From an uncultured Pontibacter sp. (GTDB lineage Bacteria > Bacteroidota > Bacteroidia > Cytophagales > Hymenobacteraceae), in contig NZ_CANLZM010000009.1 of assembly GCF_947495565.1 (NCBI RefSeq), forward strand, positions 124,001 to 188,000: DNA of 64,000 bases. Direction: 5' to 3'. Both the position numbers and the translations under genes were made by a program. This document shows positions 3,128 through 64,000 of this stretch, in pieces (the stretch's first letter is position 1; each line of letters begins with the position of its first letter). The notes beneath the pieces are model-generated. The model searched no databases. It saw only the letters and a program-made list of their open reading frames with translations, and was not told where the DNA came from.

Positions 3128-6100
3128 ATGAAGCATTCTGATAAACATCTTGGGTATGAACGCATCATACGATACATAGGCATCTCCTTTTACAGCATGT
3201 TGGCTGCCTTGCTGATGGTTGGTATGTTTTTTTATGTGCAAACCAAAGGCGTTCAGGAAGAGCATAATACTAATATACAGCACATTTATAAACGGCTGGA
3301 GCTGGTAAACAAGCTGTTCGAGAATAAGGAGACTACACAAACTCTTCTCAGAGCGCACCTCAATACACAGGACGTCTCTAAAAAAGACAGTTTAAAGCAG
3401 CAGCTGGTACAGGCTTACATCGCTAATCAAGCTACCATTCAAGAACTGCATTATGTGCTGGAACAGCCTGGGCAATTGCAAAAGCTGCACAACCTGAGCG
3501 AAGATCTTGATACTTACCATTTCCACGTAGACAGCCTGCTAGAGTTATCTGGCAAGCAACAGCAGAAGGAAGCCATAGCCTATTCATCAGCGCATATGGG
3601 CGCTTTTTACATGCGTAATCAGGCAAACCTCATCAGCCTTAATAAGGAGCTGACGGTTTCTGCCCATGAGTATACCAATAGCTTTGTTCCTGCTTTTTCA
3701 CAATTAGTGGATGAGCATATCCTCCTGATCCTGTTGGTGGTATTTTTGATTGTGTGGGCCGCTTTTGCTTTTAACAAAGTAACGAAGCGGTTGCAGCACG
3801 AGAACGAGAAACTCAACAAGGAGATCAGAGAGCGGGAAATGCTGCAGCAAACCCTGAATGAAACCCGTTTGCATTTTCAGCGGCTGTTCAAAAAGAACCC
3901 TATCCCTATGTGGGTGTATGACCAGGATACATTTAAATTTCTGGAAGTAAACGAGGCTGCCATGCAAGAATATGGCTATACAAGGGAGGAGTTTCTTCAG
4001 ATGGATGTTTTTAGCTTGCGGCCTACTAAGGACATTGAAAGCACTAAAAGCATCCTTGATCAGCTTGACAAGCGCTCTGATGCTGTTGTTGAAGGCGCTC
4101 TGCACCAGCGCAAGGACGGATCACTGTTCAAGGTAAACCTAAAGTCGCACCCTATTAAGGAACAGGAGAATATTTCCCCGCGCCTGGTTACTTGCGAAAA
4201 TGTTCAGGATCGCGAAGAGTTTATTGCAGAGCTGGCCAGAAATGAGAAGCAGTTGCGCGAGGTGAGCTCTAGTATACCGGGGGCTGTGTACCAGTACAAA
4301 CGGGATGAAAACGGCAACATAAGCTTACCATTTGTAAGCGACGGTATAGCCAATCTTTTTGATGTTACTCCTGAGGAAGTTTACATTGACCCATACATTA
4401 TTTTTGAGGCTGTGCACCCTCAGGATTTGGATGGCGTGAACCGAAGTATAGATGCATCCACCTGCGAGTTTAAGCCCTGGATTCACGATTTAAGAATCTG
4501 GAACAAGGCACAGGAGAAATGGACCTGGATTCGTGGGCATTGCTTGCCTTCCTCTAAAAATGACGGCACTGTGTTATACAACGGCACTTTTATAGATATA
4601 ACAGATCAGAAAGAGGCCCAGGCAAAGCTGATAACAAGCGAGGCCAACCTGCGCGCGCTGCTGGATAGCTCCCCACAGGCTATTTACCTGTTAGACAAAG
4701 AACTGAACATCATTTTGTTTAATGCAGTTGCCGCAGCTGAGGTAAAACAAATTACGCTGAATGAGCTGAAGGCTGGGCAAAGTATACTTGCTTATACTTC
4801 AGAAGAGCTTAAAGAAACATTAGTAGCATCTCATGCACAGGCCTTAGAGGGTAAGACTGTACAGTATGAAACAGGTTCCGGAGAGCTCTGGTTTGAAGTA
4901 GCTTACCGCCCTATCCTGACTGAGGACCAGGAAGTAATTGCAGTTGCACTAAGTATACACGACAACTCGGAGCAGCACAAAACCATAGCCACTATAAAAG
5001 ACAGTGAGGCAAAACTGGCCCGCGCACAAAACCTGGCAAAAATCGGCAACTGGGAGTTTGATACACTGAAAGAAACTCTGACCCTATCAGAGTACATTTA
5101 TACCATTTACGGCATCTCGCCCCTTACCTTCATTCCTTCTATTAACAGCGTTACCGGATTTTTTCATCCTGAAGACAAAGAAAGAGTCATGCAGGATTTT
5201 TGCCGGGTGTCGGAGGAAGGCACACAGGTGGTAACTGAGCATCGCATTATACTTGAAGACGGCACCCAAAAGTACCTGCACCAAACCATGGAGCCATACT
5301 TTAACAGCAACCACCAGGTTATTAGGATTACAGGCACTACTCAGGATATAACAGAGCAGAAGCAAAAAGAGCAGGAAATCAGGGAAGCCAGAAACCGTTT
5401 TCAGTCTACTATTGAAAATATACCTGAAATTATACTTTCTACGGACGCTCAGCTAAAAATCATTTATATCAGCCCGCAGTGCCGTGAAGTGACCGGGTAC
5501 TCTGAGGAGGAGTTTAAACAAGAGCATTTATGGCCAAAGGTTATTTATAAGCAAGATCTGCCGCAGTTGCAGACTATTTTAGATACACAAATTTTAGCAG
5601 GCGAGAAAATCCAGCATGAAATGCGCATTATCACCCGCGATAACAAAACGAAATGGATTTTGCTGCGCATGTCGCCAATGTTGGGTAAGAATGGCGAAAT
5701 AATCAGAATAGACGGATCTGTGGCCGATATTAATGAGCGTAAACTCATAGAGGCAAAACGAATTGTACTGACTGAGCAGTTGCAGGTTCAGAACCAGAAC
5801 TTAAAGCAGTTTGCTTACATTGTATCGCATAACCTGCGGGCACCAATCGCCAACATACTTGGCCTGACATCTATTTACAATAAGATTGAGCCCCAGGCAG
5901 AATCAAATAAAAAGGTAGTAGAAAACCTGGCCAAGTCAGCGCAGCACCTAGACCACACCATCAGGGATTTGAATGACATACTTACCATACGTGGTCAGAT
6001 TTTGGACGTGTCGGAGCAAGTATACTTTGAAGATATTCTAAAAGACATTTTAAAAAGTTTGACTCTCGAGATAGAAAAAACAGGAGCGCAGATTGCTTAC

Positions 6101-61629: not shown

Positions 61630-61935
61630 TTATCTTTTCTCCAGCTGCCGCTTCAGTTTCTCCTCCACGTTTTTAAGCAGCTCATACCAGTTATCGCCTT
61701 CATCCTGTGCAAACACATCGTTGCCGGGTATGCCTACGCGCATGCGCACACTTTTGGAGTTGGTAGACTGGCTGGCTTCCTCTTTAAAGTATACGTCCAC
61801 GGAATCAATTTTTTTAATGTGGCGTCTGATTTTATCAATCGAGTTGCGGACGCTCTGCTGAATGGCGTCCGAAATTTCTATATCAACGGCTTGTACGTCT
61901 AACTTAATGCCTTCGTAATGCTCTGTGTAGTTCAT
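61630..61935 (-). CDS. hpf: Ribosome hibernation-promoting factor, short HPF/YfiA type
   Basis: 101 residues from the ATG at 61935 (MNYTEHYEGIKLDVQAVDIEIS); the longer frame is not conserved-looking. The beta-alpha-beta layout IKLDVQAVDIEISDAIQQSVRNSIDKIRRHIKKIDSVDVYF and VRMRVGIPGNDVFAQDEGDNWYELLKNVEEKLKRQ fits HPF/YfiA, which binds the 30S A/P sites and stores ribosomes in stationary phase. There is no long C-terminal dimerisation domain. Symbol by family. Confidence 0.88.
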   Translation of the reverse strand: MNYTEHYEGIKLDVQAVDIEISDAIQQSVRNSIDKIRRHIKKIDSVDVYFKEEASQSTNSKSVRMRVGIPGNDVFAQDEGDNWYELLKNVEEKLKRQLEKR

Positions 61936-62113
61936 AGTTTGTTTTGATTTCTTTATAAGAAAAGAGACGGCTGTCCCTTTAAAACTCTGCTTATAAACGA
62001 AAGGCAAGCACTTTTGTTAGACCGTTTCAGCGGCAGATTTGCAAGGCGGGTAAGTTAGCTGCAACACGAAGATCATCTTTTCATGATTCCTTAAAATTAA
62101 TTTAGACCTAAGG

Positions 62114-62144
62114 CTTGCAATTACGTAAAGCAACAGTAACTTTG
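62114..62144 (+). promoter_or_regulatory. Bacteroidetes promoter before the 62-64 kb cluster
   Basis: CTTG (62114-62117), a 19-bp spacer and TAACTTTG (62137-62144) fit the Bacteroidetes -33/-7 consensus. The -7 box is inside operator A, so repressor binding would block RNA polymerase. Confidence 0.6.
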
Positions 62145-62160
62145 AAACTCAAAGTACTTT
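62139..62160 (+). promoter_or_regulatory. Operator A of the winged-helix regulon
   Basis: 22-bp site with the dyad ACTTTGA-AAC-TCAAAGT followed by a further CTTT half-site. It ends 4 bp before the ATG at 62165 and overlaps the promoter -7 box. Eighteen of 22 bases are the same in sites B and C. Confidence 0.7.
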
Positions 62161-62164
62161 ACAC

Positions 62165-62791
62165 ATGAACCAGCAGCACGAGCATTTAGCCGACCTCCGC
62201 GAGATCCGAAACATCATGGACCGTTCTTCGCGTTTCATTTCGCTAAGCGGGCTTTCCGGTATTTTTGCGGGCCTGTTCGCGATGGCCGGTGCTGCGCTTG
62301 TAAAGTGGTACCTGAGCCAGCACAACATCGTTTACCGCTCCGATTACAGTGTAAACCTGAACTGGGACGCGATTACTTTTCTTGTATCCGTGGCTCTGGT
62401 TGTACTTGTACTGGCTCTTGGGTCGGCTGTATTTTTTACCAGCCGGCAGGCGCAGAAGGTGAATCAGAAAGTATGGGATAGCAAGTCGCAGCGCCTGGTC
62501 CTGAACCTGGCTATACCGCTGGCAGTGGGCGGCGTGTTTTGCGGGCTGCTGCTTTACCACGGCGTTGTATACCTGGTGGCTCCTTCTATGCTTATATTCT
62601 ATGGCCTGGGCTTGATAAACGGAAGCAAGTACACGCTAAGCGACATCCGTTACCTGGGCATCTGTGAGATTATACTTGGCCTGCTGGCTAGCTTTTTTAT
62701 AGGGTATGGCTTACTGGCCTGGACCATCGGCTTCGGGGTGCTGCATATTATTTATGGCACACTGATGTATTTTAAGTACGAAAGGAAGTAG
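62165..62791 (+). CDS. Polytopic membrane protein of the winged-helix cluster
   Basis: 208 residues. A helical N-terminus (HLADLREIRNIMDRSSRFISLSGLSG) precedes about six membrane helices. The SRFISLSGLSGIFAGLFAMAGAA segment is conserved-looking in Bacteroidota. No enzymatic motif is present. It starts 4 bp after operator A and lies 3 bp before the regulator gene, so it is cotranscribed with it. It may sense a membrane signal for the regulator or be its target. Unknown function. Confidence 0.72.
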   Translation: MNQQHEHLADLREIRNIMDRSSRFISLSGLSGIFAGLFAMAGAALVKWYLSQHNIVYRSDYSVNLNWDAITFLVSVALVVLVLALGSAVFFTSRQAQKVNQKVWDSKSQRLVLNLAIPLAVGGVFCGLLLYHGVVYLVAPSMLIFYGLGLINGSKYTLSDIRYLGICEIILGLLASFFIGYGLLAWTIGFGVLHIIYGTLMYFKYERK

Positions 62792-62794
62792 CCG

Positions 62795-63103
62795 GTGAAA
62801 AACTATCTTGATAATATAAATAAGGCTTTTGAGAGTAGAGCCCGGCTCGGTATTATGTCGGTGTTGATGGTGGAGGAAAAGGTGGACTTTAACACTCTGA
62901 AAGAAAACCTGCAACTAACGGATGGAAACCTGGCAAGCCACCTGCGTGCCCTGGAAGAAGCGCAGTACATTCAGGTAGAAAAGCAGTTTGTGGGCCGCAA
63001 ACCTAAAACCACTTACCAGGCAACCGAATCCGGCAAAACCGCATTTCATGAGCACCTGGACGCTTTGGAACAGCTAATTTTAAATAACCGGAAAGACGAG
63101 TAA
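62795..63103 (+). CDS. Winged-helix transcriptional regulator
   Basis: 102 residues starting at GTG 62795, 3 bp after the upstream stop; no ATG is in a suitable place. The sequence FESRARLGIMSVLMVEEKVDFNTLKENLQLTDGNLASHLRALEEAQYIQVEKQFVGRKPKTTYQATESGKTAF is a classic MarR/ArsR-like winged helix of the HTH_34 type, with the recognition helix in TDGNLASHLRALE and the wing in FVGRKPKTTYQ. There is no ligand domain or metal Cys pair. It is the obvious candidate to bind the three 22-bp operators. Confidence 0.85.
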   Translation: MKNYLDNINKAFESRARLGIMSVLMVEEKVDFNTLKENLQLTDGNLASHLRALEEAQYIQVEKQFVGRKPKTTYQATESGKTAFHEHLDALEQLILNNRKDE

Positions 63104-63118
63104 TTTTTTTGATTCTTT

Positions 63119-63140
63119 ACTTTGAAAAGCAAAGTACTTT
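63119..63140 (+). promoter_or_regulatory. Operator B of the winged-helix regulon
   Basis: 22-bp site, ACTTTG-AAAAG-CAAAGT plus CTTT, 15 bp after the regulator stop and 64 bp before the ATG at 63205. It differs from site A at two positions only. Confidence 0.7.
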
Positions 63141-63204
63141 ATATTATTTCAGCCATGAATACTTGATTGATAATTAAACCTCTAACCATTTAAATAAAAC
63201 AGTT

Positions 63205-63495
63205 ATGATTACGCAAAACAAAAGACTTCTCAGCATTTTATCTACTGCAGCATTCATCTTGCTCATCCCGTTTGTGGCCATGTTTTTTACAGAAGAAGTT
63301 AACTGGACTTTTTCAGATTTTGTAGTAGCTGGCGTGCTGCTATTTGGCACCGGCTTTTTATGCGAGCTTGTCATGCGCAAAGTAACAAACTGGAACTACC
63401 GCATCGGGTTTATTGCAGTTATACTTTTTGCGCTCTTCGTTGTATGGGCTGAACTGGCAGTTGGAATATTCGGGACGCCGTTTGCAGGGAGCTGA
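63205..63495 (+). CDS. Small membrane protein of the winged-helix cluster
   Basis: 96 residues with three hydrophobic helices (LLSILSTAAFILLIPFVAMFF, FVVAGVLLFGTGFLCELVM, IGFIAVILFALFVVWAELAVGIFG). It has no enzymatic motif. The acidic residues in FFTEEVNW and WAELAVG lie within or next to the membrane. Operator B precedes it and a third operator follows it. Unknown function. Confidence 0.7.
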   Translation: MITQNKRLLSILSTAAFILLIPFVAMFFTEEVNWTFSDFVVAGVLLFGTGFLCELVMRKVTNWNYRIGFIAVILFALFVVWAELAVGIFGTPFAGS

Positions 63496-63592
63496 AGCAA
63501 AACGTCTTATGATGCAGCTATTTAATCTTGATTTTGAGCAGAAAAAACAAGTTTATACTTGGCCGCAAAGACAGTTATACTTTTATCCATAC

Positions 63593-63614
63593 ACTTTGAA
63601 AAACAAAGCTCTTT
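63593..63614 (+). promoter_or_regulatory. Operator C of the winged-helix regulon
   Basis: 22-bp site, ACTTTG-AAAAA-CAAAGC plus CTTT, 12 bp before the ATG at 63627. It differs from A and B only at the two variable pairs. Confidence 0.65.
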
Positions 63615-63626
63615 GAGTAACCATTT

Positions 63627-64000
63627 ATGAAAATTTACCAATCCATTTCCAAAAAGGACATTTACATTCTGGTAGCAGTAATTGCCTATAGTTTCTTGTT
63701 TTACCAGCAGCGTGCAGGGCTTAACTTTCTCCTATTCGCCATACTTGTAGTAGGCTTGCTCTATGCCCAAACACCAACAAACCGCCGAAAACAGCCAAGT
63801 TGGTACGTTACTGCCGCAGCCAGCATACTTACAGGCATAAGCATTGTTGTAACCGGCTCTGAGTTAGCTATAGCCTTAAATATAGCCTCTGTGCTTTTGC
63901 TAGCTGCCTTTAGCCTTTCGCCGCGCTCATCAATTTTTGTAGCTGCTGCCAATGCCGTTTATTCCTGTGCATCTGCTTTTATAAGTTACGGTATCAAAGC
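63627..64000 (+). CDS. DUF4153-like polytopic membrane protein (partial)
   Basis: The ATG at 63627 opens a frame that runs off the right edge after 124 residues. It has hydrophobic helices near 12-25, 32-44, 62-75 and 82-95, and an N-terminal MKIYQSISKKDIYILVA. The string FLFYQQRAGLNFLLFAILVVGLL is typical of the DUF4153/DUF4173 group. Operator C is 12 bp upstream, so it belongs to the regulon. The rest of the protein, and any further gene, lies outside the window. Confidence 0.6.
   Translation, partial: MKIYQSISKKDIYILVAVIAYSFLFYQQRAGLNFLLFAILVVGLLYAQTPTNRRKQPSWYVTAAASILTGISIVVTGSELAIALNIASVLLLAAFSLSPRSSIFVAAANAVYSCASAFISYGIK

Follow-up and report, generated by a model that had tools for sequence, protein, structure and literature searches.

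From the shared distribution of a 22-bp element and a small winged-helix protein across Bacteroidota genomes, we propose that the HTH_34 protein encoded at 62795 of the window (the whole stretch of 64,000 nucleotides that was analysed) is probably an autorepressor of a cell-envelope gene set, acting through the sites collected in Table 1. The interpretation of the earlier note, in which this regulator controls its own operon together with membrane proteins, thereby holds in large part, reaches further than was proposed there, and is supported by the co-occurrence of motif and regulator across 296 genomes.

Table 1. Features of the regulator cluster, in window coordinates unless a locus is named.
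Feature	Position	Strand	Remarks
Promoter-like TTG (62115-62117), 19 bp, TAACTTTG (62137-62144)	62115-62144	+	read from sequence; precedes TM1-regulator operon
Site 1, putative operator	62139-62160	+	ACTTTG-N5-CAAAGT plus (A)CTTT; 4 bp before TM1 start
TM1, membrane protein, 208 aa	62165-62791	+	no Pfam family; modelled as six long helices plus one at the N terminus
HTH_34 winged-helix regulator, 102 aa, GTG start	62795-63103	+	PF13601
T tract	63104-63110	+	ahead of site 2
Site 2	63119-63140	+	between the stop codon of the regulator gene and TM3, whose start is 64 bp away
TM3, membrane protein, 96 aa	63205-63495	+	no Pfam family
Site 3	63593-63614	+	12 bp before DUF4153 gene
DUF4153 membrane protein, 484 aa	63627-64000, continuing beyond window end (whole gene L011:3628-5082)	+	PF13687, E 5.2e-43

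We infer, from sequence comparison, that the 62795 protein binds these sites, and the following mechanism is suggested. A dimer of the HTH_34 protein would read ACTTTG-N5-CAAAGT, the halves of which are 11 bp apart, i.e. about one helical turn, while the third half, (A)CTTT, may provide a further contact or be bound by a second protein. Site 1 appears to cover the -7 box and the presumed transcription start of the operon promoter, and a bound protein would therefore block initiation. The same sites would govern separate transcription units that encode membrane or envelope proteins, TM3 and DUF4153 here and CreD and others in relatives. A signal, probably linked to the envelope, would lower binding, whereupon the set would be switched on together, and the rising level of the regulator would then restore repression.

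The three sites match ACTTTGAAANNCAAAGNNCTTT without mismatch in a pattern search of the window, in agreement with the claim of the earlier note that three 22-bp sites share 18 positions, and the distances of 4, 64 and 12 bp to the start codons were likewise reproduced. With up to three mismatches allowed, exactly these three matches are found in the window, compared with 0.19 expected and with a maximum of one in 100 shuffles. In the 4.52-Mb genome, copies with zero to two mismatches are limited to the three window sites. Seven further matches occur at three mismatches, which is the chance level, since the reversed control pattern yields nine at up to three mismatches; two of the seven were examined, one spanning a start codon (L004) and one intergenic and resembling another repeat (L008). 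One other perfect ACTTTG-N5-CAAAG core is present in the genome (C13:61502, L017), within a gene. The 22-bp consensus as such thus stands, and its form is refined here to an inverted repeat, ACTTTG-N5-CAAAGT, followed on the gene side by the third half (A)CTTT. Three half-like elements are adjacent in each site, and all three window sites point towards the gene. A general promoter element was rejected as an explanation, because the conserved part far exceeds the length of a -7 box and the genome copies number only three.

The winged-helix gene noticed inside the cluster was identified as a member of PF13601 (HTH_34), scoring 106.9 bits where the cut-off is 27 (E 6e-31), with coverage of model positions 2-80 of 80. 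It is the only strong HTH_34 member in the genome, the next best reaching E 2.5e-5. The structural model of the regulator (mean pLDDT 93) is a winged helix with no further domain. In a PDB sequence search at E <=0.01 the sole relative was 1ub9 (PH1061 of Pyrococcus horikoshii, E 3e-8), which has the same family and fold and also came top in the structural comparison among the chains ranked first by Foldseek, with Z 15.5 and rmsd 1.7 over 99 residues. The entry is titled a transcriptional regulator homologue, and neither its operator nor its targets were the subject of any paper returned by a literature search of partial coverage. PadR, HxlR, MarR and ArsR repressors are small winged-helix dimers that bind palindromic operators at their own promoters. 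Their folds rank next after 1ub9; by sequence, however, the 62795 protein is closer to HTH_34, and it differs from them in having no sensor domain and no cysteine. It falls below the cut-offs of the models for PadR (PF03551, 21.4 bits against 27), ArsR/SmtB metalloregulators (NF033788, 30.4 against 55), SdpR autorepressors (NF033789, 18.0 against 100) and MarR. The HxlR cut-off (PF01638) is just passed, with 22.3 bits against 20.8, and this assignment was set aside as the score is far below that for HTH_34. The recognition helix opens with TDGNLA, which does not vary across 23 diverse regulators, and the core of the site is nearly invariant.

Promoters of Bacteroidota consist of a -33-like TTG and a TAnnTTTG -7 box. 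Judged by this consensus, the overlap of site 1 with a promoter-like -33/-7, as claimed earlier, is borne out; a scan of sigma-70 type was discarded as unsuited to promoters of this phylum. An alignment restricted to exact sites, 58 before TM1 and 111 within 120 bp before other genes, places a TTG start at -25 to -23 in 50 of the 58 and TAnnTTTG at -2 in 36. Before the other genes, TAnnTTTG occupies the same place in only 17 of the 111, and a T tract lies at -15 to -9, as it does ahead of site 2 in the window; the tract may be a terminator, a part of the promoter or a contact for a protein. Since the -7 match is rarer there, support for the geometry of repression comes chiefly from the operon promoter. 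The regulator may instead bind the same sites and activate transcription, a reading that we regard as unlikely. It gains from the scarcity of a clear -7 box in the non-operon sites, which for that reason do not discriminate between activation and repression. At the operon, by contrast, the -7 box falls within the site, which follows the -33-like TTG (36/58), whereas an activator would be expected upstream.

The linkage of motif and regulator extends from the genus to the phylum. With a slightly looser pattern the motif is present in 32 of 39 relatives, including all 25 genomes of the genus (the source genome among them), and in 24 of these 25 two sites lie about 980 bp apart, as read from the match rows; the regulator itself is found at E <=1e-10 in 149 of 150 family genomes. 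Of 296 Bacteroidota genomes, 73 contain the exact motif, at 136 places altogether, compared with a single match (in G305) for the reversed control, and all 73 motif-bearing genomes contain a regulator relative at E <=1e-12. When the regulator is required at E ~1e-19 or better, which 112 of the 296 satisfy, 71 genomes carry both, 41 the regulator only, 2 the motif only and 182 neither (Fisher p ~3e-36, a guide only because the genomes are related). Rather than many copies with no link to the regulator, the outcome that the earlier note had set against its own reading, we thus find three copies in the source genome and co-occurrence throughout the phylum.

Distances were taken to regulator places in 165 genomes down to ~7e-15, weaker places being included in part, and on this basis 103 of the 136 exact-motif places, spread over 66 of the 73 genomes, lie <=2.5 kb from the regulator, and 33 farther away. 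The term 'compact regulon' used earlier is hence apt for the source genome with its three copies; elsewhere sites also occur at a distance, as at these 33 places, and G028 has as many as 10 matches. G028 and G034, both order-level relatives with larger genomes, contain 10 and 6 matches, respectively, at <=1 mismatch (L145-L152, L159-L163). The genes that follow them include DUF1361, DUF4153 and radical-SAM genes, and these two genomes seem to have a larger target set.

Nineteen of the 41 regulator-only genomes were examined, and in 18 of the 19 loci a variant site lies near the regulator; in 13 of the 18, position 12 of the pre-operon site is A instead of C. In L317 sites occur downstream of the regulator only, and in L321 none was detected.

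Equivalent results were obtained for loci chosen by the regulator alone. The best 80 named loci of this search span Pontibacter, Rufibacter, Hymenobacter, Spirosoma, Flavobacterium, Butyricimonas, Ignavibacteria MAGs and others. A site lies <=1.8 kb upstream in 70 of the 80 and within or just after the gene in 65, and a same-strand site is found somewhere in 78, compared with 0/80 at threshold for the reversed matrix and likewise for resampled sequence. The two loci of the 80 in which no site reaches the threshold are from Runella (L373, L398) and have both regulator and TM1, so either the operator has diverged or autoregulation has been lost there. Over all fetched loci, i.e. 195 distinct ones (199 counted, four being repeats), an upstream site is present within 2.2 kb in 190 and TM1 lies ahead in 188. 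L165-L222, which repeat places within larger loci, were omitted from the counts of variant sites, promoter alignment, residue covariation and gene groups. The putative operator at the regulator's own promoter is accordingly conserved together with the regulator, the mark of an autoregulated one-component regulon.

In seven loci TM1 is missing. L333 is truncated where its contig stops, in L282, L283 and L290 another membrane protein takes the place of TM1, and in L319, L320 and L248 none was detected by the search used. In L248 the regulator stands alone, with one site ahead of the gene and another after its stop codon. Since the site persists when TM1 is gone, it belongs with the regulator, and attribution of the motif to TM1 was rejected on the strength of this locus.

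Linkage alone does not separate the binder of a site from its target, and another protein might bind the sites with the HTH_34 gene merely one of its targets. We consider this improbable, as the motif tracks the regulator across genomes and in 190 of the 195 distinct loci and is retained upon loss of TM1. Site position 12 also goes with regulator residues: among the 22 of 190 upstream sites with A12, T48 is found in 18 and D67 in 21, compared with 10 and 9, respectively, of the 168 with C12. Little weight is given to this covariation, because residue 25, located outside helix and wing, covaries equally (A in 20/22 versus 8/168) and common descent may explain it; residue 48 is also absent from the eight columns of highest mutual information.

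Less probable still is an RNA element, in which an ACTTTG/CAAAGT hairpin in the transcript would affect translation or termination. In its favour, the halves can pair and are near start codons, and the sites before other genes are preceded by the T tract. At the operon promoter, however, the first half is within the -7 box and is therefore presumably not transcribed from that promoter. Moreover, A12 in the 22 upstream sites breaks the pair with G6, the variants read keep G6 so that no pair is restored, and the third half is conserved as strongly as the arms. Chance resemblance of AT-rich promoter sequence was rejected as practically negligible: TTTG does belong to the -7 box, but the count in the window, the phylum-wide linkage and the controls without matches at threshold all speak against it.

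Returning to the proposed autorepressor, the genes behind its putative operators vary by lineage, DUF4153 or CreD often being among them. In the window, the DUF4153-like protein suspected at the edge was verified by its PF13687 match on the whole gene, read beyond the window end. In the fetched loci, the families behind sites include DUF4153, CreD, DUF1361, DUF2809, VIT-domain, C92-peptidase and beta-lactamase-family serine hydrolase proteins, one protein each of Coq4-like, ABC ATPase and B12/radical-SAM type, and several nameless families. As same-strand partner among the best 80 loci, CreD is found in 34 and DUF4153 in 19, and both together in none. When the gene groups that immediately follow exact sites are considered (gap <=100 bp, TM1 and regulator groups excluded), 18 of 23 have hydrophobic segments, versus 29% of 133 background genes of >=100 aa, a rough comparison in which one group, cluster 20, is the membrane protein standing in for TM1; the remaining 5 groups are not membrane-like.

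CreD (PF06123) has no match in the window genome (G000). Among 67 genomes with CreD, four of them by partial matches only, the gene lies <=7 kb from the regulator in 28 and away from it, or without a listed regulator, in 39; 16 of the 67 have no listed regulator, one of these (G438) having a weak match. CreD as a universal target was therefore rejected, being absent from the window genome and often unlinked. One region that stands apart from the 19 loci above, L322 (G176:C30), contains a site but no regulator. This site, at 4415, is remote from the regulator listed for G176 and ~0.9 kb away from a gene whose match to CreD is confined to the C-terminal part (E 4e-12). In Stenotrophomonas maltophilia, loss of creD harms envelope integrity (PMC4689548). 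The hydrophobic gene groups, together with the envelope defects of the CreD mutant, lead us to propose an envelope role for the gene set, with chances that we put at about even.

As the regulator is a bare winged helix of 102 residues that lacks cysteine and sensor domain, the signal should come from elsewhere. TM1 is a conceivable source. Its model is of high confidence (mean pLDDT 91), and the fold search by Foldseek returned no informative match (best E 1.7; the highest Z, 8.4, was obtained with a designed six-helix barrel). Pfam searches gave no match for the window protein and scattered weak ones in <=5 of 69 members. We tentatively suggest, as one possibility that is less probable than not by a good margin, that TM1 is a sensor by which the regulator is retained or set free depending on the condition of the envelope, and that the two together represent a widespread envelope-response system of Bacteroidota commanding CreD, DUF4153 and others. 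A conserved N-terminal stretch of TM1, EIRxxMERSSRF, is perhaps its means of holding the regulator. TM1 is the usual partner of the regulator (188 of 195 distinct loci), in support of such a role; against it count the solitary regulator of L248 and the five further loci in which the search used detected no TM1.

Small autoregulators that act through a palindromic site are a known kind; the regulon itself appears to be new, as far as the literature searched extends. In SdpR/SdpI of Bacillus, a small autorepressor is encoded together with a membrane protein to which it may be sequestered. The likeness to the present system is that of a small putative autorepressor encoded with a membrane protein, but the target set here is wider, and the 62795 protein scores only the above 18.0 bits against the SdpR model. 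In the CreBC-CreD system of Gammaproteobacteria, creD is tied to a two-component system, whereas in relatives within Bacteroidota it often stands behind a putative HTH_34 site. A literature search, with most subscription journals outside its reach, found no description of the regulon, of the operator or of an HTH_34 link to DUF4153 or CreD, in agreement with the earlier statement that the arrangement had no described function.

Motif and regulator together represent one testable handle on membrane proteins lacking an assigned function, i.e. DUF4153, DUF1361, DUF2809, TM1 and TM3, and the same handle reaches the control of CreD in Bacteroidota. By a motif search alone, uncharacterised genes can be placed in one shared set. 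If the envelope role is true, this would be an envelope-response circuit in a phylum that includes many bacteria of gut, soil and water.

Two neighbours of the cluster are recorded in addition. A gene of ribosome-hibernation type (PF02482, S30AE, E 9e-15) at 61630-61944 on the minus strand is transcribed away from the TM1-regulator operon, and site 1 lies in the upstream region common to both. Beyond the window end, a type II CRISPR-Cas set occupies L011:5236-9578, starting ~150 bp past the end of the DUF4153 gene, with a Cas9-like protein of 1038 aa (RuvC_III, HNH_4), Cas1 and Cas2.
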